DNA of 36,006 nucleotides from an uncultured Candidatus Thioglobus sp. (GTDB taxonomy: Bacteria > Pseudomonadota > Gammaproteobacteria > PS1 > Pseudothioglobaceae): assembly GCA_905612405.1 (NCBI GenBank), contig CAJQRX010000041.1:1-36006 (forward strand), given 5' to 3'. The position numbers were made by a program, and so were the translations under genes. Below the pieces are notes generated by a model. That model saw only the letters and a program-made list of their open reading frames with translations, was not told the DNA's origin and ran no database searches. Of the stretch, positions 8,605 to 24,444 are shown in pieces; within the stretch, counting starts at the first letter, position 1, and every line of letters starts with the position of its first letter.

Positions 8605-9489
8605 TTATTTTTTTCCAAAATAAGGAATCAGTATTGGTGTGTTGTTCTTGTATTCAAGATATCCCTTGTCATTGCCCCATTTTTTTTCAGCTTTTTCTTC
8701 TAAAAAAGGTAGGCCGCTTATTTTAGTTAAAAGAAGGTAGACAAAAATTGGTGAAACAAGAGTTAAAAATTGCCAACCAGAAAGCAACGGTAGCGACATT
8801 ATCGCAATGCCAGTCCACAGAACAATCTCTCCAAAATAGTTTGGATGGCGTGATATAGACCATAAGCCAAGCGTTATAAACTTATCCTTATTTTCAAGGA
8901 TCTTACTAAAACTCTTTTTTTGCTTATCTGCAACAGCCTCGAAAGTAAATCCTAAAATCCAGATGGCAAATCCTGCCATAAAGAATAAGTCAAGAGTCAC
9001 TTGCTGATTTAAAATAATAATAGTAACAGCATTTACTGTCGTTAAGAAAACCCACAAGGCTGAAAGAGTCCATGTCATTAAAAACTTTGGCAGTGACTTC
9101 TTTATCTCTCTAAACCTTTTGTCTTCTCCACTTTTAACTATTCTTATATAGAGAAATGTGCCAAGTCGTAGCGTCCAAATTGATACAAAAATAGCCACAA
9201 TAGTTGAGCGTATTGATATTTGCTGTCCTGAGTTTAGGAGCGCAAAAATTGCAGTGGCTATGACTAGAAGGGTTGCGATCATGCCTGTAAAGTCAAAATA
9301 TTTTTCTGAGCTCGTAATAAGCGAAGGGATTGCAACTATCCAGTGGACAATAAAGCTAACACCGGCACATAAAAGTATAGCTGGTACTCCATAAAGAACA
9401 GCGCCCTCGACTGTTGCAGCATTTGCAACAAAATAGGCTGTCAAAATACATGCAACAATAGCGGCTAGATCTTTAAGATTATCTTTCAT
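8605..9489 (-). CDS. DUF1295 membrane protein (steroid 5-alpha-reductase-like fold)
   Basis: 294 aa, a polytopic inner-membrane protein with about six or seven hydrophobic segments. The C-terminal region holds SRHPNYFGEIVLWTGIAI, the signature shared by DUF1295, isoprenylcysteine methyltransferases and 3-oxo-5-alpha-steroid 4-dehydrogenases. Such proteins bind NADPH or SAM at this motif and act on membrane-embedded lipids, but the reaction of DUF1295 is unproven. Its ATG overlaps the stop of the upstream methyltransferase (ATGA). The position in a fatty-acid modification cluster suggests reduction or modification of an acyl chain, which is an inference. Confidence 0.85.
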   Translation of the reverse strand: MKDNLKDLAAIVACILTAYFVANAATVEGAVLYGVPAILLCAGVSFIVHWIVAIPSLITSSEKYFDFTGMIATLLVIATAIFALLNSGQQISIRSTIVAIFVSIWTLRLGTFLYIRIVKSGEDKRFREIKKSLPKFLMTWTLSALWVFLTTVNAVTIIILNQQVTLDLFFMAGFAIWILGFTFEAVADKQKKSFSKILENKDKFITLGLWSISRHPNYFGEIVLWTGIAIMSLPLLSGWQFLTLVSPIFVYLLLTKISGLPFLEEKAEKKWGNDKGYLEYKNNTPILIPYFGKK

Positions 9490-10523
9490 AATGGCTTCTC
9501 AAAAAGGTAGTGGGAAACACCCCACTCTGATCCATGATTAAACCCAAAAAGAACCTCACATGACATGAAAAAAATTCGCCATCTTTGAAACCAAATATTT
9601 GCTTCGTCTTTACCGTAAGTTTTTTCGAATAGTTTAAGCACTTCAGCTTTATTTTTATCCATCTTGTTAAGCCATGCGAGCGAGGTTTTTTCATAGTGTG
9701 TTCCTTCAACTCTCCAGTCTTGTTCTATCTTCATTTTGTCTGGGAAGCTCATTAAAAGACGATGTGAAGGCATTTGTCCCCCACTAAAAAACTCTCTAGC
9801 CATCCAGTCCCCCTCGTCTTCATCTTCAAACGGGTATGCAATTTTATCATGTGAGAAGATATGAACAAAAAGTTTTCCTTCTTGATTAAGCCACCCACTG
9901 ACTCTCTTTAGAAGCTCGTCATAGTTGCGCATATGTTCAAACATTTCAATAGAGACCACTCGATCAAACACCTTATCGATTGAAAAATCATTCATGTCTG
10001 CAGTTATAACTTTGATATTTTTTATTTTAAGTTTCGCACATTTTTTTTCAATGAATTGTCTCTGATCATTTGAATTACTAACAGCAGTAATTTTGCTATT
10101 AGGAAAATTTTGTGCCATAAAAAAAGTCAAAGAGCCCCATCCACAACCTAGCTCTAAAATTTGTTGCCCATCAGAAAGTGCTGCCCTTTCACTAGTTAAC
10201 TTTAACATCTCAACTTCTGAGTCATCCAAAGTCGAGACTCCCTGCGGCCAGTACCCAGAACTGTATTTTAAATTCGATCCCAGTACTAATTCAAACAGCC
10301 TTGGCGGAACTTCATAGTGTTGCTCATTTGCTTTTTCAGGAACTAACGCAACTGGACTCTTATTTAAAGAGGCAATCCATGATGAGTGTCTATTTTCCAT
10401 CTCCTGCTGACCAATGCTCGTTGCCTCTAAGAGTCTTTGAGCACATAAGCGCTTTATACCAAGCCTAATAAGTGCGTCTGGTAATAAGCCATTTTCTGCA
10501 AGTTTTATTAATAATTTAATCAT
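9486..10523 (-). CDS. SAM-dependent methyltransferase, cyclopropane-synthase family (second paralogue)
   Basis: 345 aa. The start is the Met opening MIKLLIKLAENGLLPDALIR, a common N-terminus of this subgroup. The longer open frame would overlap the upstream gene. The SAM motif is ELGCGWG (residues 124-130), preceded by KANEQHYEVP and LKYSSGYWP, with EMFEH following. It is closer to the class that includes plant coclaurine N-methyltransferase than to classical Cfa. Relative to E. coli Cfa, the bicarbonate-site His and Tyr are kept (VHIF, HYEKT) but the Cys is Ser. It probably methylates an unsaturated phospholipid acyl chain. It lies 4 nt after the first paralogue and overlaps DUF1295 by ATGA. 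Confidence 0.85.
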   Translation of the reverse strand: MIKLLIKLAENGLLPDALIRLGIKRLCAQRLLEATSIGQQEMENRHSSWIASLNKSPVALVPEKANEQHYEVPPRLFELVLGSNLKYSSGYWPQGVSTLDDSEVEMLKLTSERAALSDGQQILELGCGWGSLTFFMAQNFPNSKITAVSNSNDQRQFIEKKCAKLKIKNIKVITADMNDFSIDKVFDRVVSIEMFEHMRNYDELLKRVSGWLNQEGKLFVHIFSHDKIAYPFEDEDEGDWMAREFFSGGQMPSHRLLMSFPDKMKIEQDWRVEGTHYEKTSLAWLNKMDKNKAEVLKLFEKTYGKDEANIWFQRWRIFFMSCEVLFGFNHGSEWGVSHYLFEKPL

Positions 10524-10527
10524 TTTT

Positions 10528-11817
10528 TTAGTATGTAATTTTAGTATTTTGAGAGTCAGGTTTGGCAAATATAAACTGAAAATCACCAATTAAGTTTTCA
10601 AGAAATCCTGCTTCACAGTAGACTAGATAAAAAATCCAAATTCTTATAAAAGGATCTGAAAAACCAAGCTCTCTTACTTGCGGTAATACTTTTTCAAAAT
10701 CTTTACGCCAGATCTCGAGTGTCCTTGCATAATGAAGCGTTATGTCTTCAGAATCAACCATAATTAAGTCTGTTTTCTGTTTGATTGCTTTTTCAACTTG
10801 AGCTACTGAGATTAAGCATGAGCCAGGGAAAATATATTTTCTTATAAAGTCTACTGAATTTTTATAGGCATCAAAGTCTGGATCGTTATACGTTATTCCT
10901 TGAAGCGCCATTAGACCATTTTTCTTCAGTAATGAAGAGGCTTTTTCAAAGAAGCCAGGCACGTAGTCAGACCCAACAGCCTCAATCATTTCTATCGAAA
11001 CAATCTTGTCAAAAGAGCCCTCAAGCTCTCTATAGTCTTGGTTTAATAAAGTTATCTTATTGTCTAGATTTTCTTGACTAACTAAATCAGCAACATAATT
11101 AAACTGATTATCTGAGATAGTCGTAGTTGTAACTTTACAGCCATAATTTTTAGCCGCATGAGTTGCAAAACTCCCCCACCCTGTTCCAATTTCAAGGACA
11201 TGGTCATCACTATTAAGGTTCAGTTTTCGACAGAGCCTATCCAATTTTTCTATTGAAGCATCGTGCATGCTTGACTTCTTATTTAGAAAAATACCGCTTG
11301 AGTAAGTCATGGTTGAGTCAAGCCATAGCTGGTAAAAATCATTACTCAGATCATAGTGCGCCAAAATATTACTCTTGCTTCCTTTCAGGGTATTTTGTCT
11401 AAACTTATGGATTATTTTAGTGATTGGATTTGTTAATCTTGCAAGTCCAGACTCAAGACCTTCCATAGTTTTTTTATTTCTAATAATAAGCTGAATTAAC
11501 TGGACCAAGTTATCTGCAGACCAATAACCAGCAGTGAAAGCTTCTGCCGCACCATTGGTGCCGCCACTTCCTAAAAAAACATAAAACTCTTGAGATGAAA
11601 CGGTTAAAGTAGCCTTAAGTTCTGATTTGGGTATGCCAAATACGTGAATTTCAGAGCCATCAATTATTGTCAGTTCACCTGTTTTTAAGCCTTTAAGTTT
11701 TTTAAATAAAATCTTTTTAAAGAAAGAAGTCATTCTGGTGCTTCTTTGCATTTCTTGAATATTATTTGCTAGGCCATCAACTGAAAGTCTATCTTTATTT
11801 TGAATTTCTTGGGTCAT
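10528..11817 (-). CDS. Cyclopropane-fatty-acid-synthase homologue (possibly a non-cyclopropanating methylase)
   Basis: 429 aa, from an ATG that overlaps the DUF1365 stop (ATGA). Residues 1-145 are the Cfa-type lipid-binding N-terminal domain, and the rest is a class I SAM methyltransferase (VLEIGTGWGSF at 207-217). Compared with E. coli Cfa as I recall it, the bicarbonate-site positions are C139 to S174, E239 kept as E279, H266 to Q306, I268 kept as I308 and Y317 kept as Y363. Cfa adds a methylene to cis double bonds of membrane phospholipids. The changed Cys and His may mean that methyl transfer is not followed by ring closure, giving a methyl-branched unsaturated acid, as for UfaM in furan-fatty-acid synthesis. 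That is inference. Confidence 0.85.
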   Translation of the reverse strand: MTQEIQNKDRLSVDGLANNIQEMQRSTRMTSFFKKILFKKLKGLKTGELTIIDGSEIHVFGIPKSELKATLTVSSQEFYVFLGSGGTNGAAEAFTAGYWSADNLVQLIQLIIRNKKTMEGLESGLARLTNPITKIIHKFRQNTLKGSKSNILAHYDLSNDFYQLWLDSTMTYSSGIFLNKKSSMHDASIEKLDRLCRKLNLNSDDHVLEIGTGWGSFATHAAKNYGCKVTTTTISDNQFNYVADLVSQENLDNKITLLNQDYRELEGSFDKIVSIEMIEAVGSDYVPGFFEKASSLLKKNGLMALQGITYNDPDFDAYKNSVDFIRKYIFPGSCLISVAQVEKAIKQKTDLIMVDSEDITLHYARTLEIWRKDFEKVLPQVRELGFSDPFIRIWIFYLVYCEAGFLENLIGDFQFIFAKPDSQNTKITY

Positions 11818-12578
11818 AGTTTGTCTGGATGAGTAAAAAATGGAGCTCTTTTTATATAGAGCATAAATGCTTGCCAATGGATTCTATATACAACCATCAG
11901 TGTGATAAATGGAAACCTAGAAATTGCCTTAATAAGACCTGCGTTTGAAAATGCACGCCTCTTTAGGCTTAGTGAAACATTAAAAACCTTTTTACCGTCT
12001 TTAAAGTTTTTCATTTGGACATTTAAAGAGTTTTCAGGATGTGAAAAAAACCACTCGTAGTCATGGTCCATTCCCCAAAAAGGGCTCACATGTAGTTGTT
12101 TTTTAGGAGATGCAGTAAGGCCTGGCTTATTATCATTTTTAGTCTGCTCTTCTATAATGTAGGCATGCCTTTCTTTCCATGGTGTGTTTGTTACTTCAGC
12201 CATTATGGCCTCAACTTTTTGGTCTAAATCATCAAAACAGTAATAGAAACTTACTGGGTTAAAACAATGTCCAAAGTACCTCAAGTGCGTTAGTAGTCTT
12301 ATAGGTCCATTAAAAACTTTACCCGTTTTTTCATGTAGCGTTTTTCGTACCGCACTATCTAAGTCCAATTCTGGATCTCCATGGTAGTCCTTCCTCTTAA
12401 ACGAAACAAGTGCAGGCTTATTAATGTTCCAAAGAAGGGATGGCTTCATCGTAGATGCTAAAGATGAGATGTCGATATAGGCCATGAAAATTGGGTATGA
12501 GAAAAAACGCTTAAACGGTGTATGGCGCTGATGACTAATCGTCCCCCAATATAGTTGATGATTTTTAGAGAGCGTCAT
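11814..12578 (-). CDS. DUF1365 family protein
   Basis: 254 aa, a member of DUF1365, which is found in lipid-modification operons beside a flavin oxidoreductase and a Cfa homologue. Family features visible are the N-terminal HQRHTPFKRFFSYPIFM, the central HLRYFGHCFNPVSFYYCFD, and the later HVSPFWGMDHDYEW. The several conserved His residues suggest a metal or catalytic site, but no activity is established. No signal peptide is evident. It is coupled by ATGA overlaps to both neighbours. A role in oxidation or modification of acyl chains would fit the context. Confidence 0.85.
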   Translation of the reverse strand: MTLSKNHQLYWGTISHQRHTPFKRFFSYPIFMAYIDISSLASTMKPSLLWNINKPALVSFKRKDYHGDPELDLDSAVRKTLHEKTGKVFNGPIRLLTHLRYFGHCFNPVSFYYCFDDLDQKVEAIMAEVTNTPWKERHAYIIEEQTKNDNKPGLTASPKKQLHVSPFWGMDHDYEWFFSHPENSLNVQMKNFKDGKKVFNVSLSLKRRAFSNAGLIKAISRFPFITLMVVYRIHWQAFMLYIKRAPFFTHPDKL

Positions 12579-18609: not shown

Positions 18610-19521
18610 TTATAGCGGCTCTATGATGGCTTTTGGTTTACTTTCTTGGTCTTGATTATTTTTCATTGCTCGCCAAGAGACATAAAGGCCACTAAGAATA
18701 ATGATGATTAATCCAAGAATAGCTTGAATATTTGGCACAAAACCAAAAATTAAATAGCTCAAAATAATAGCAACTACAATCTCAAAATAATTAAAGGGGC
18801 TCAGCTCTGAGGCGCTCGCAAATTCAAATGCTTTAATAATCATAAAGTGGGAAGTTGCAGCAAAAAAACCCATTGCAGCACCCATTAATACCGCTTTTAA
18901 ATCAGGTATTACCCAATGAATTGCTGCTAGTGGGGTCATTATCAGTAGGCCCACGATTGCAGAGTAAAACAAAGTCAAAACTGGTGGCGCACGAAAAGAT
19001 AGTTTTTTAGTTATGATAATATAAAGGGCATAGCAAAATCCTGCGACTAAGGCAAATAATAAAGTCGGATCAAACTGTTCACTATCAGGCTGAAGAACCA
19101 CAATAACACCTATAAATCCTATTAAAACGCCCACACCAATAAATAAATCGAAACGCTCTCCTAAAATAAAAGGCGAAAGGATTGCAACAACCAGGGGTGA
19201 GATAAATAAAAGTGTAAGTGCTTCTGGGATATCGTTGGTTACAATAGCTGCAAAAAAGAACAGTGTTGCTAAAGTTAGCATCAGGCCCCTTAAAAACTGA
19301 AGGCTAGGATTTTCAGGAACAGAAAACAGCTTAACTTTTTGCCAGATTATCATTGGCAACAACCAAATAGCATGGAAAAAAAATCGCGTCCATGTGATTT
19401 GTGTTACTGGATAGTCCATTTCACTTAAAAGCTTAGCAAAAATATCCAAGAAAGGAACAATTGACATTCCTAAGAGCATCAAGCCTATTCCTTTAAGTAC
19501 TTTTGTATTTGTAAGTTTCAT
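18610..19521 (-). CDS. DMT-superfamily (EamA) permease
   Basis: 303 aa with about ten hydrophobic segments arranged as two EamA repeats (about 10-145 and 155-290), the usual drug/metabolite transporter layout in the inner membrane. The first repeat contains DIFAKLL and WTRFFFHAIWLLP, as in S-adenosylmethionine/RhaT-like and riboflavin-type relatives. The substrate cannot be predicted. The C-terminus is a short charged cytoplasmic tail (NNQDQESKPKAIIEPL). It lies 86 nt after tRNA-Leu on the same strand and may share its transcript, because no terminator is apparent between them. Confidence 0.87.
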   Translation of the reverse strand: MKLTNTKVLKGIGLMLLGMSIVPFLDIFAKLLSEMDYPVTQITWTRFFFHAIWLLPMIIWQKVKLFSVPENPSLQFLRGLMLTLATLFFFAAIVTNDIPEALTLLFISPLVVAILSPFILGERFDLFIGVGVLIGFIGVIVVLQPDSEQFDPTLLFALVAGFCYALYIIITKKLSFRAPPVLTLFYSAIVGLLIMTPLAAIHWVIPDLKAVLMGAAMGFFAATSHFMIIKAFEFASASELSPFNYFEIVVAIILSYLIFGFVPNIQAILGLIIIILSGLYVSWRAMKNNQDQESKPKAIIEPL

Positions 19522-20028: not shown

Positions 20029-20775
20029 TTAACCTGCCTTACATATTTGTAAAAAATCTTCTGCTTTAAGTGCAGCTCCGCCAATTAGCCCGCCATCAAT
20101 GTCTGGGCAAGAAATTAACTCCACAGCATTGCCTGCATTCATACTTCCACCGTATAGTATAGGTGTTTTTTGAGCAATATTTTCACTACTCTCGCCTAAA
20201 AGGTTTCGTATAAATAGGTGAACAGCTTGCGCCTGTTCTGGTGTTGCTGTCATGCCAGTTCCTATTGCCCATACTGGCTCATAAGCAACAATAATATTAT
20301 GAAAAGAATCAATACCAAGCAGCTCTATAACAGCGTTAATTTGCTCCTCAACTACTGTCTCAGTTTTTCCAGACTTCTTATGCTCCAGAGACTCTCCAAC
20401 ACACAAAAGAGGGGTCATTCCAGCGTCTAACGCGGCCTTCGTTTTTTTGGCAACGACTGAACTTGTTTCGCCGTATAAGCTCCGCCTTTCCGAGTGCCCA
20501 ACAATAACGTGCTTTGCACCAAAATCCTTTATCATATCGGCGCTAATTTCACCAGTAAATGCACCTGATGCGTTTATATTGATGTTCTGGGCGCCAAGTT
20601 TTAAATTACTGCCTTCAATCAAAAGCTCAACTTGTGACAAATATGGAAAAGGAACACAAACCAAAACCTCTGCATTAACGCCTTCCATTCCAGACAATAT
20701 TCCACCAATTAGACTCTTAACTGAGTCTTTACTGGCGTTCATTTTCCAGTTTCCAGCAATAATCGTTTTGCGCAT
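20029..20775 (-). CDS. tpiA: Triosephosphate isomerase
   Basis: 248 aa, a full-length TIM barrel that interconverts dihydroxyacetone phosphate and glyceraldehyde 3-phosphate in glycolysis, gluconeogenesis and the Calvin cycle. Catalytic residues are Lys11 (GNWKMN), His94 (VGHSERR) and Glu166 (AYEPVWAIGTG). The phosphate-gripping GGSMNAGNA and GGLIGGAAL loops are near the C-terminus. It heads a tpiA-secG-tRNA-Leu transcription unit, with secG beginning one base after its stop. Confidence 0.97.
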   Translation of the reverse strand: MRKTIIAGNWKMNASKDSVKSLIGGILSGMEGVNAEVLVCVPFPYLSQVELLIEGSNLKLGAQNININASGAFTGEISADMIKDFGAKHVIVGHSERRSLYGETSSVVAKKTKAALDAGMTPLLCVGESLEHKKSGKTETVVEEQINAVIELLGIDSFHNIIVAYEPVWAIGTGMTATPEQAQAVHLFIRNLLGESSENIAQKTPILYGGSMNAGNAVELISCPDIDGGLIGGAALKAEDFLQICKAG

Positions 20776-20869: not shown

Positions 20870-22939
20870 TTACTTAAGACTTGGCATTTCACGCATAAAC
20901 ATCGCTTTTTGTATTTCTTGCTCAGGCTCCTCAAAATTTTGCGCGGCAAGATGGCCTAAAAAGACTGCATCTGCTATTAAGCCAGGAGACTCAGCATCAC
21001 CTATTAACTGAATATGTTTTGTTTCTCCCTTTTCAGCGCTATTTTCTTGCTCAATAAGTTGATCATAGAGGGTAGTATTTGGAATACGCTCTGTAACCAT
21101 TACTATTGCTGCGCACTTTAAAAAGGTTGTTTCTCCAGTAAATATACATTGAAGGCTAAGATTGCTTCCTTCAGCCTTATCTATGGTCTTATTGCAAATT
21201 ACTTTAACGCCACTAACAAGAAGCGCTTTCTGAATCCTTTTTTGCTCTAAGGTTGACTCTGTCCATGGAGATACAACACTGGCTGGGGTAATAAAAATTA
21301 TTTCCTGATGATCAGAGCTCAAATGATCTGCAATAACTCCTGCTAAATATCCCTGCTCATCATCATAAACAACAATAGGCCCGCTTAGGTCTTTACTCTC
21401 TGTTATTGCCTCTTCTGGGGTTAGCACCTTTAGTGACCCTAAGCCTAGAATTGGTTTTCTTCTGCTTCTGCCAACACCATCTTTACGCCAACTTGAACCA
21501 GTAGCTAGAAATATATTATTAATTCCAAGTTCATTTATATGCTCGAGGGTCAGTTCACTTTCTTTGTAAATTTCAATATTATTTTTTTGTTGTATCTCAT
21601 AAAGCCTATTGTCAGATACTCGCTTCCAGGCAGAAAGCCCCTTGAGGCCAGATTCAAAAAGCACCCTGCCTCCTAATTTATTATCTGCCTCAGCTAAAGT
21701 AACATGATAGCCGCGTCTTGCAAGCTGCATACTGCACTCTAATCCAGAAGGCCCAGATCCAATAACAAGCGCTTTTTGGTCTGTCTTTTTAGGCTTAATT
21801 GATTCTGGATCCCAGCCCCTTCTCCACTCTTCTCCCATAGTGGGGTTTTGAGTGCAGCGTATTGGTACTGCGAAATTATCACTCGACACACAAATGTTAC
21901 AGCCAATACATTCTTTAATTTGATCAGTATTTCCAGCTTTAATTTTGTTAGGAAGATAAGGGTCTGCTATTGAAGGCCTCGCCGCACCAATAAGATCTAG
22001 GGCTCCACGCTCAATGAGACTAACCATTAGGTCTGGGGATGTTAGTCGCCCAACACCAACTACTGGCTTTGTTGTTATGCTTTTAACAAATTCAACATAT
22101 GGAATTTGGTAGCCTTCGTTTGGCTCAAAACGAGAAGTTTGCGAGTCATTAGCCCAATCAGAAACATTAACGTCCCAAAGGTCAGGAATCTCTGCCAGCA
22201 TTTCTACTACAGCCCTGCCTTCTTCAAAGAATTGCATTCCATCTGAACCCTTAAGCTCATCAACAGCAAACCTAAAAGCTACTGCACAAGTATCTCCAAC
22301 AGCGTCTTTAGTTTCTTCAAGCAGTTCACGTGTTAGGCGCACGCGGTTTTCAATACTGCCACCATACTCATCAGTCCGGTCGTTAATTTCTGGAAGCAAA
22401 AACTCCTGAGTAAGGGTCATACCATGGCCTGCATAAACATAAATAATATCAAAGCCCGCAGCTTTTGCGTTTAATGCAGCATTTCGGTGCCACCTCCTAA
22501 ACTCGGCAATATCTTTTTTATTCATGCGCCTAGTTTGTTTAGGATAAATAAGGTCTATTGACTGGCTTACAGGTGAGATAACTGGAAGTCTTGAATATAA
22601 GTTAGCAGCATGGTTTCCATTGTGGGCTAGTTCTATGGCTGCAAGAGCGCCATGCTCATGAACAGCCTCTGTCATAAGGCTTAGCGCTGGAATATCCCTT
22701 TTGTCCCAGATTCTTTGTTCAACATATGGCGCCAAATCCGAGCTAGGGTGTATTTCAGACTCCTCAGTACTGACCACTCCCCATCCACCTTTTGCCTTTA
22801 GGGCTCTCATTGCTGCGTGTGCTTGTGGTCTTTGATGACCCATACCACAACAATGAGGAACTTGATAAAAGCGATTTTTTGTAACGACAGGGCCAATTTT
22901 TACAGACTCAAAAAGTCTACTATAAGGGTTATTTTTCAT
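20870..22939 (-). CDS. TMADH/histamine-dehydrogenase-family iron-sulfur flavoprotein
   Basis: 689 aa, full-length and colinear with trimethylamine dehydrogenase (TMADH), which oxidatively removes an alkyl group from amines and reduces ETF. Residues 1-350 form the FMN TIM barrel. They include Cys30 (QVPHC), the position of the covalent 6-S-cysteinyl-FMN, and the triad Tyr169, His172 and Asp265. Cys344, Cys347, Cys350 and Cys362 (C-x2-C-x2-C-x11-C) bind a 4Fe-4S cluster. The C-terminal part holds GSGPSG (394-399) and a second nucleotide-binding fold. Of the TMADH aromatic cage, Trp262 is kept, but Tyr60 is Glu60 and Trp355 is replaced by Asp354. The substrate is therefore probably not trimethylamine. 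A histamine- or diamine-type amine fits better. The gene is divergent from dnaA. Confidence 0.9.
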   Translation of the reverse strand: MKNNPYSRLFESVKIGPVVTKNRFYQVPHCCGMGHQRPQAHAAMRALKAKGGWGVVSTEESEIHPSSDLAPYVEQRIWDKRDIPALSLMTEAVHEHGALAAIELAHNGNHAANLYSRLPVISPVSQSIDLIYPKQTRRMNKKDIAEFRRWHRNAALNAKAAGFDIIYVYAGHGMTLTQEFLLPEINDRTDEYGGSIENRVRLTRELLEETKDAVGDTCAVAFRFAVDELKGSDGMQFFEEGRAVVEMLAEIPDLWDVNVSDWANDSQTSRFEPNEGYQIPYVEFVKSITTKPVVGVGRLTSPDLMVSLIERGALDLIGAARPSIADPYLPNKIKAGNTDQIKECIGCNICVSSDNFAVPIRCTQNPTMGEEWRRGWDPESIKPKKTDQKALVIGSGPSGLECSMQLARRGYHVTLAEADNKLGGRVLFESGLKGLSAWKRVSDNRLYEIQQKNNIEIYKESELTLEHINELGINNIFLATGSSWRKDGVGRSRRKPILGLGSLKVLTPEEAITESKDLSGPIVVYDDEQGYLAGVIADHLSSDHQEIIFITPASVVSPWTESTLEQKRIQKALLVSGVKVICNKTIDKAEGSNLSLQCIFTGETTFLKCAAIVMVTERIPNTTLYDQLIEQENSAEKGETKHIQLIGDAESPGLIADAVFLGHLAAQNFEEPEQEIQKAMFMREMPSLK

Positions 22940-23130: not shown

Positions 23131-24444
23131 ATGTCTCAAACTTGGGTCCAGTGTCTAGAATCGCTAAAAAATACACTGCCGTTAGGTGAGTTCAGTGTAT
23201 GGGTTAAGCCTTTAAAAGCAGCTGAAAGAAATGAGACTCTTTACCTCTATGCGCCCAGTGCGTCTGCACTTAAGTACATAAATAACCATAAAAACCTTGA
23301 AGCAGCAATTATTCTCGCAGTCTCAGAGTTTGATCGCAAACTGAAAGTGAGGTTTGGCGTTGTTGATTCAAGTAAAAAAATTGCTGGCCAAACCAAACAT
23401 CACACAACTCCGCTATTCCCAGAATACACTTTTGACAGTCTAGTTTTGGGAAGCGCTAACCAAGTTGCCGCTCTTGCAAGCAGACAAATTGCAGAGAAAG
23501 TTGGCGCCTCCCCATACAATCCTTTTATTATTTATGGCGAGTCTGGTCTTGGAAAAACTCACTTAATGCAAGCTGCAGGACACCTGGCGTTAGAAAAAAA
23601 TCCAAACACAAAAATAATTTACGTTCCACTAATGGATTTTGTAAGAAATATTACAACCAGCCTTAGGCACAATACAATAGAAAATGTTAAACTTTTTTAC
23701 CAATCTGCTGATTTGTTATTGGTTGATGATATTCACTTAATAGCTGGTAAGGATAAATCACAAGAAGAATTTTTTCATATTTTTAATTTTTTATTTAGTA
23801 CAAAAAAACAAATCATCTTTACATGTGACCAGCCGCCTAAAAACATTAAAGATCTCGAAAACAGACTTAAAACTCGTTTTTCACAAGGTTTAAATTTACA
23901 GCTTTCACCTCCAGAACTAGAAATGAGGGCCGCTATTCTATTAAAGAAGTCCCAAAACCCTCAAATATCACTAAATCTTAGTGAGGATATTGCTCTTTTT
24001 ATAGCAAGCCATGTTGTTTCAAATGTTCGAGATCTAGAGGGGGCGCTTCTAAAACTAAAGGCGTTTGTCGATTTTTCTCAAATAGATCATTCTTTCATAA
24101 CTAAAGATGTTGTTGAGGGAGCTTTGGGCGATCTAATTAAACCAAAAAAACTTATTATTGAAGTAAATGAAGTTCAAAAGACAGTTAGCAAGTACTATGG
24201 AATAACGGTTTCTGATTTAATTTCAAATTCGCGAAAACAACACTTGGTCAAAGCCAGACAAATGGCAATTTACTTATGCCATGAATTAACTTCTTTGTCA
24301 CTAGCAAAAATTGGTCAAAATTTTGGAAATAGGGACCACTCAACAGTTTTGTATTCCTGCGAAAAACTAAAAGGGCTTATGAATACAAACGAAGAGATTA
24401 AAAACGATATTGAAAACATAACAATTAAAATTACTAACTTATAA
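23131..24444 (+). CDS. dnaA: Chromosomal replication initiator DnaA
   Basis: 437 aa, an AAA+ ATPase that binds DnaA boxes and melts oriC. Domain I is residues 1-78. Domain II, the linker, is only about 20 residues, so the protein is shorter than E. coli DnaA (467 aa). The AAA+ domain begins at about residue 97 with Walker A GESGLGKT (136-143), Walker B LLLVDDIH and the arginine-finger segment TRFSQGL. Domain IV carries SRKQHLVKARQMAIYL and the DNA-binding signature GNRDHSTVLYSCEKL. No clear Shine-Dalgarno precedes the ATG, but the N-terminus aligns with the family. It heads the dnaA-dnaN-recF-gyrB block. Confidence 0.97.
   Translation: MSQTWVQCLESLKNTLPLGEFSVWVKPLKAAERNETLYLYAPSASALKYINNHKNLEAAIILAVSEFDRKLKVRFGVVDSSKKIAGQTKHHTTPLFPEYTFDSLVLGSANQVAALASRQIAEKVGASPYNPFIIYGESGLGKTHLMQAAGHLALEKNPNTKIIYVPLMDFVRNITTSLRHNTIENVKLFYQSADLLLVDDIHLIAGKDKSQEEFFHIFNFLFSTKKQIIFTCDQPPKNIKDLENRLKTRFSQGLNLQLSPPELEMRAAILLKKSQNPQISLNLSEDIALFIASHVVSNVRDLEGALLKLKAFVDFSQIDHSFITKDVVEGALGDLIKPKKLIIEVNEVQKTVSKYYGITVSDLISNSRKQHLVKARQMAIYLCHELTSLSLAKIGQNFGNRDHSTVLYSCEKLKGLMNTNEEIKNDIENITIKITNL

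Follow-up and report, generated by a model that had tools for sequence, protein, structure and literature searches.

The closest described relatives of the protein studied here are the histamine dehydrogenases of Nocardioides simplex (HADH; PDB entry 3k30) and Rhizobium sp. 4-9 (HDH; 6de6), which are about 49% and 45% identical to it, respectively, and share its fold, Cys30, the Tyr/His pair, the cluster cysteines, and Trp262, Glu74, and Asp354 of the substrate pocket (numbered as in our protein). They differ in having Gln at position 60, Asn at 110, and Tyr or Phe at 174, where our protein has Glu, His, and Met, and Asp265 is replaced by Cys in 6de6. The accessible part of a previous report lists Gln65, Trp267, and Asp358 as substrate-site residues of the HADH cage (PMC10180351), and our alignment agrees with this and with an initial annotation of the DNA, which gave histamine dehydrogenase Gln, Trp, and Asp at the cage positions.

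Another relative, the 6-hydroxypseudooxynicotine (6-HPON) amine dehydrogenase Pno/HisD (6l6j; 47% identity), has in common with our protein Glu60, an acid at 74 (Asp), and a bulky aliphatic residue at 174 (Leu; Met in ours) but carries Val at 354 and Ala at 30 with FMN that is not covalently bound; it occupies another place in the tree and belongs to a nicotine pathway. In the portion of the source available to us, Pno of strain S33 is described as oxidizing a secondary N-methylamine and reducing ETF (PMC7688666). Trimethylamine dehydrogenase (TMADH; 2tmd/1djn) aligns over 678 residues (Z 51.3, 2.5 A) and has Cys30, the triad, and the cluster in common, but it is only 35%–36% identical, has an aromatic bowl of Tyr60/Trp264/Trp355 where our protein has Glu60, Trp262, and Asp354, and lies outside in the tree.

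A putative amine dehydrogenase gene beside dnaA

The gene lies in a stretch of 36,006 nucleotides from an uncultured Candidatus Thioglobus sp. that was analyzed as a whole and is called the window below. Its frame (22939..20870, minus strand) is complete with an ATG start at 22939 and encodes 689 amino acids, and a phmmer E value of 5.8e-206 for this protein means that the match is not due to chance. The features are as follows:

20870..22939, minus strand: TMADH/HADH-family FMN/4Fe-4S amine dehydrogenase, predicted N-methylamine dehydrogenase (689 aa)
21923..22915, minus strand: old-yellow-enzyme-type FMN barrel (Pfam Oxidored_FMN, residues 9–339)
22850..22852, minus strand: Cys30, where TMADH/HADH have their 6-S-cysteinyl FMN link (alignment, codons)
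22760..22762, minus strand: Glu60, part of the cage; TMADH has Tyr60, HADH Gln65, and HisD 6l6j Glu here (alignment)
22718..22720, minus strand: Glu74, third pocket acid; Ser74 in TMADH, Glu79 in HADH, Asp in HisD (alignment)
22424..22435, minus strand: Tyr169 and His172 of the catalytic triad (alignment, codons)
22145..22156, minus strand: Trp262 (cage) and Asp265 (triad) (alignment, codons)
21854..21910, minus strand: 4Fe-4S cysteines 344, 347, 350, and 362 with cage Asp354 at 21878–21880 (alignment)
21050..21772, minus strand: nucleotide-binding domain (Pfam Pyr_redox_2, residues 390–630)
20029..20775, minus strand: triose-phosphate isomerase (tpiA), downstream neighbour, separated from the stop codon by 94 bp (conserved synteny)
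23131..24444, plus strand: DnaA, divergent neighbour (ORF/domain calls)

The codons give C30, E60, E74, Y169, H172, W262, D265, C344, C347, C350, D354, and C362, all of which, apart from E74, had been named in the initial annotation, and these residues align with HADH 3k30, HDH 6de6, HisD 6l6j, and TMADH 1djn. The two cage positions are not misaligned: Position 60 is free of gaps, and Asp354 matches Asp358 of HADH ungapped, while the loop at 354 lacks one residue relative to TMADH, which leaves the Asp opposite either Trp355 or the next Glu depending on the aligner. An AlphaFold model of the protein (mean pLDDT 86) has 3k30 as its best match (TM 0.93, around 48% identity), followed by 6de6, HisD 6l6j, and TMADH (35%); VIA-align, which served only for ranking known relatives, gives these four Z scores that differ by no more than about one unit. 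The protein thus has the FMN barrel and nucleotide-binding domain of the TMADH/HADH family in one chain together with Cys30, the Tyr-His-Asp triad, and the four 4Fe-4S cysteines, and sequence and model together indicate an FMN/4Fe-4S amine dehydrogenase of this family that is nearest to HADH and not to TMADH. The earlier statement that it follows TMADH almost residue for residue was too strong, given 35%–36% identity over the fold compared to around 48% with HADH.

The gene is real and, with a dN/dS of 0.03–0.10 in comparisons with those six of seven relatives for which dS is finite, maintained under strong purifying selection (the comparison with genome G006 had infinite dS and gave no ratio). 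The host genome (1.09 Mb, 68% complete, with the window as contig C41) has near-identical counterparts of the locus in an uncultured SUP05 cluster MAG (L032; 99%) and in Ca. Pseudothioglobus aerophilus (L033; 94%). It encodes RuBisCO, ETF, and two MttB-family genes, and a phosphoribulokinase gene lies inside the window. The carbon-fixation genes fit the proposal that the host is a chemoautotroph, but the title of a 2015 paper by Marshall and Morris reportedly calls the related strain PS1 a mixotroph, so that this label tells only part of the story. No relative of the window protein was found on viral contigs.

Tyr442 of TMADH, presumably the ETF-docking residue, is Arg in the window protein and likewise in HisD; we discarded it as a test of ETF docking since HisD carries Arg and yet the related Pno reduces ETF. 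Electron transfer to ETF, as initially proposed, is nonetheless consistent with the ETF genes in the genome and with the ETF reduction reported for the homologue Pno in the accessible part of its description (PMC7688666).

Cage residues and position in the tree

Both cage acids had been suggested to define a separate substrate class. Among 123 distinct rows of this family branch (including the window protein), however, Glu60 is present in 111, Asp354 in 119, and both in 109, with Glu74 alongside the pair in 97 of the 123. An earlier count over 126 ingroup rows including the window protein (E60 in 114, D354 in 122, both in 112) had left out the reference rows, L027, L028, and the 41%-identical paralogues, and removal of three duplicates led to the 123. 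The pair is invariant in 22 rows of the same genus (window protein included) and in one further row of the same family, and it spans differing gene contexts. Since 109 of 123 rows carry both acids and Asp354 is common to HDH as well, the pair is the ordinary state of this branch and no special signature.

What sets the group apart from HDH is Glu60 and not Asp354: The window protein has the Trp and Asp of the HDH cage but Glu in place of Gln, whereas 3k30, 6de6, and five HDH-type proteins of Roseobacter-type genomes (L208, L209, and L221–L223; L224, one of four candidates, came out in a wrong frame and was not counted) carry Gln60, Ile69, Phe72, and Asn110 and retain Asp354. The 41 rows of alignment A3 were chosen by hand, and its list of invariant positions is not a sample statistic. 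Glu60 is not an exclusive mark, as Gln60 occurs in three relatives outside the HDH clade and Met60 in two. The window protein is not of the HisD type either, with which it has Glu60 in common but from which it differs at Cys30 and Asp354.

A tree of 70 rows (IQ-TREE, PMSF; supports given as bootstrap/SH-aLRT) agrees with this picture. The window protein and other Pseudothioglobus proteins fall inside a clade of 27 rows (100/99) together with proteins of Ruegeria, Leisingera, Roseovarius, Hyphomicrobiales, and others, while HADH, 6de6, L208, and L209 form a separate clade (100/99) without it. TMADH and one Pseudothioglobus paralogue (L124 of genome G016) stand outside (100/100); no dimethylamine dehydrogenase (DMADH) sequence was among the rows. 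Eleven loci had been dropped from the sample as duplicates or fragments (L001, L020, L026, L032–L035, L037, L038, L057, and L075). The copy of locus L036 (7977–10050) lies within Pseudothioglobus at a branch length of 0.002 on a contig filed as Candidatus Neomarinimicrobiota, which is probably misbinned.

This placement, together with 49% identity compared to 35%–36%, supports the view that histamine dehydrogenase is a nearer relative of the enzyme than TMADH is. A role in the oxidation of free trimethylamine or dimethylamine would fit the marine setting, the shared fold (Z 51.3 to 2tmd), and the retained Cys30, triad, and cluster cysteines, but we regard it as highly improbable: TMADH and L124 lie outside the clade at full support (DMADH itself is unplaced), Tyr60 and Trp355 are lost, and G016 carries a Tyr60 TMADH-type paralogue in addition to this gene. 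The group moreover seems to have another route for trimethylamine, as marine tmm and tdm sequences are described as related to Ca. Thioglobus singularis in the part of that study we could access (PMC5520151). The paralogue of G016 (L124, 8504–10696 on contig C21) is sister to TMADH at 100/100 and has Tyr60 and an RWE cage motif, with a second ETF pair around 2.4 kb downstream on the same contig. In some genus members, a different paralogue with 41% identity (L120, 9300–11453; L135, 7766–9919) shows changes in both cage and triad (Val60, Leu172, and Phe or Tyr169), and its L120 copy lies near a sulfatase/PehA-like gene.

A histamine, agmatine, or polyamine dehydrogenase that oxidizes a primary amine of a diamine-like cation deserves more weight. 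HADH is the best solved relative (49%), and Trp262, Glu74, and Asp354 correspond to its Trp267, Glu79, and Asp358 in an acid-rich pocket. Some more distant Glu60 relatives (L063, L065, L069, L072, and L100) have a hydrolase of the arginase family, a gamma-glutamyl-amine-synthetase-like protein, or an aminotransferase encoded nearby, and one Leisingera has an annotated agmatinase upstream. Nevertheless, HADH and HDH form their own clade (100/99) with Gln60, Asn110, and Phe or Tyr174 where the window protein has Glu60, His110, and Met174, and the gene neighborhoods described below speak for a different kind of amine.

Gene sets of relatives outside the genus

Gene order was read at 80 named loci and then in 20 further neighborhoods, 15 of them of this clade. 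The second draw covered 394 genomes of one family, which we call Roseobacter-type because two of its loci equal Rhodobacterales loci (L196 = L048 and L202 = L042). Counts of the gene directly downstream omit the genus loci and these two duplicates and set aside one clade row and seven other rows whose contigs have no downstream gene.

At the 30 assessable clade loci outside the genus, the gene directly downstream encodes a Rieske oxygenase of the kind known from Stc2/GbcA systems in 19 cases, an MttB-family protein in 8, and neither in 3. The window is without such a Rieske gene. In other clades, neither partner is found directly downstream at any of 59 loci (51 with neither and 8 with another TMADH-like gene; Fisher p 8e-20, a value that ignores shared ancestry). 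The second draw alone gave a Rieske or MttB partner in 12 of 13. Partners lie on the same strand at a gap of -124 to 18 bp, where negative values stem partly from the choice of the longest-frame start. Across 31 clade loci, we further found genes for BetI-like regulators (19), PotB (15), a PotD-like binding protein (13), a class-III aminotransferase (11), and BCCT transporters (3).

The Rieske protein of L047 has its nearest PDB match in 3vca (239 bits, compared to 137 for CntA), which we take to be the stachydrine demethylase Stc2, and falls under the curated cut-off for GbcA with 287 of 670 bits. All 18 full-length clade Rieske copies have a CxxC pair, which the part of a published account available to us gives as a mark of some group-V Rieske enzymes (PMC10952381). 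The quaternary-amine gene link is not wholly confined to the clade, as only the directly downstream order is: L065 and L200 each have a distant Rieske gene (22%–32% identical to the Ruegeria one) immediately upstream of a Tyr60-type family gene, and the cluster of L069, from another clade, contains Rieske and MttB genes. At loci L205–L207, TMADH-family genes form tandem arrays of three or four (Tyr60/Glu265 type and Glu60 types), some of these loci with PotABC-like transport or aminotransferase genes. A Tyr60-type member (Tyr262, Glu265) stands beside a Glu60 one in L065, L200, and L205–L207, which suggests a split between tertiary and secondary amine steps.

In the PotD-like binding proteins of the clade, the positions of PotD Trp34, Tyr37, Trp229, Trp255, and Tyr293 are retained in 13 of 13 copies, whereas Asp168, Glu171, and Asp257 have no counterpart in any of the 13; we take these residues to be the aromatic cage and the three polyamine-binding acids of PotD. 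Because the aromatics are kept and the three acids are lost, this pattern speaks against a polyamine as the ligand and favors a compact quaternary ammonium enclosed by aromatic side chains, though one acid may remain in the form of an Asp at the place of Tyr85. Together with the quaternary-amine gene sets of the relatives, it weakens the diamine or polyamine substrate first proposed for the enzyme. In addition, three genomes of the Roseobacter-type family hold both this type of gene and a separate HDH that is 78% identical to 6de6, and no Rieske or MttB gene was seen within seven genes of two HDH-type loci (L208 and L209). Altogether, we consider oxidation of histamine, agmatine, or polyamines rather unlikely. 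The agmatinase annotated in Leisingera caerulea (L119, 4986–5957) lies with a second binding protein upstream of the gene set and possibly hints at a guanidino compound.

A dimethylglycine/sarcosine-type demethylase that ends glycine betaine breakdown would account for the GbcA-like Rieske, BetI-like regulators, BCCT, and betA/betB around members, and mtgC of the MtgBCD route for glycine betaine is reported from SUP05 genomes in the accessible part of PMC12478193. This assignment strikes us as improbable, since the compared pocket positions include no Lys or Arg for a carboxylate but three acids instead, and since the aminotransferase and PotABCD-like transporter would be unexpected for glycine betaine.

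Genus loci and a predicted demethylation step

In the genus itself, dnaA lies beside the gene at 15 of 21 loci read and fmt-argH-hemC at 4 of 21; these 21 omit L036 (Dpp-type transporter and peptidase upstream), both G023 and G010 (1.5 kb flanks each), and G007 (fragments). No relatives of Rieske, MttB, Pot-type, BCCT, or class-III aminotransferase proteins are present among the 29 called frames of the window, and no pathway link was seen between the amine dehydrogenase gene and tpiA, which takes the downstream place. By contrast, the Rieske gene of the relatives recurs in G026, where it starts 2 bp after the gene, shows 55% identity to its Ruegeria counterpart, and is interrupted by an in-frame stop in that MAG, and in G016 the gene follows betB-betA (betaine-aldehyde and choline dehydrogenase) on one strand. 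A linked partner is likely ancestral and the location beside dnaA acquired later, because linkage to Rieske or MttB genes prevails in the clade outside the genus.

Many Pseudothioglobus genomes contain several distant Rieske genes, and other than that of G026 the genus Rieskes are 23%–36% identical to the Roseobacter-type one. MttB-family matches number 2 to 10 per genome (some of them fragments) in 19 genus genomes (G000–G018), and there are none in 11 genomes of other families. We dropped the idea that the genus copies are orthologues of the linked MttB, as the best are 36%–41% identical and none exceeded the limit in the genome of the window, which is 68% complete. A mandelate-racemase-family gene adjoins the amine dehydrogenase gene in G016 and G032, and the proline-betaine epimerase HpbD was considered as a candidate for it; this was dropped as well, the G016 copy scoring below cut-off for sugar-acid dehydratase models and having top PDB entries without a named function. 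Elsewhere in the window, an EamA-family transporter gene (18610–19521, minus strand) lies two genes downstream and keeps this place in dnaA-type genus loci, and two overlapping minus-strand genes (9486–11877) both resemble cyclopropane fatty acid synthase models, with scores that stay under the cut-offs.

We favor, at a probability of roughly 0.6, the reading that the enzyme is an ETF-linked N-methylamine dehydrogenase that continues the demethylation of a quaternary amine, with the substrate being predicted. The role of the window gene itself would follow from its kin, as none of the Rieske or MttB partners stands beside it. Removal of the first methyl group would fall to a Rieske oxygenase or MttB-type methyltransferase in relatives, and the flavoenzyme would then remove an N-methyl from the tertiary and/or secondary amine that is left. 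The protonated amine may be held between Trp262 and the three pocket acids (Glu60, Glu74, and Asp354) while a hydride would pass from the N-methyl carbon to FMN at Cys30, by homology with TMADH, HADH, and Pno; electrons would leave one at a time via the 4Fe-4S cluster to ETF, and hydrolysis of the iminium would give formaldehyde and the demethylated amine. Homology does not fix which C–N bond is cut in the window enzyme because Pno cleaves the chain side and frees methylamine. Where present (11 of 31 loci), the class-III aminotransferase may take the final primary amine. The Ca. Pseudothioglobus gene seems mostly to have left this setting and to persist beside dnaA and tpiA under purifying selection.

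More tentatively, and in our view possible rather than probable, these genes could belong to a widespread, as yet uncharacterized marine pathway that degrades a quaternary ammonium compound whose nitrogen has no carboxylate close by, choline-like or another cationic osmolyte. Rieske and cobalamin methyltransferase would be interchangeable in its first step, followed by the Glu60 flavoenzyme and then the aminotransferase; residue 60 would act as a switch of amine class, with Tyr in enzymes for tertiary amines and Glu or Gln in those for amines that bear N-H, and Ca. Pseudothioglobus would keep the flavoenzyme step beside dnaA. The literature that we searched, with subscription papers thinly covered, yielded no description or assay for the clade, its Rieske pairing, or the SUP05 gene.

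Seawater is rich in methylated amines and betaines, and many enzymes of their final breakdown lack an assigned role. If our reading is true, genes now named “NAD(P)-binding protein” or “FAD-dependent oxidoreductase”, for instance in plasmid records, would gain a testable role, and one residue would part these enzymes from histamine dehydrogenase in widespread marine sulfur-oxidizing mixotrophs.
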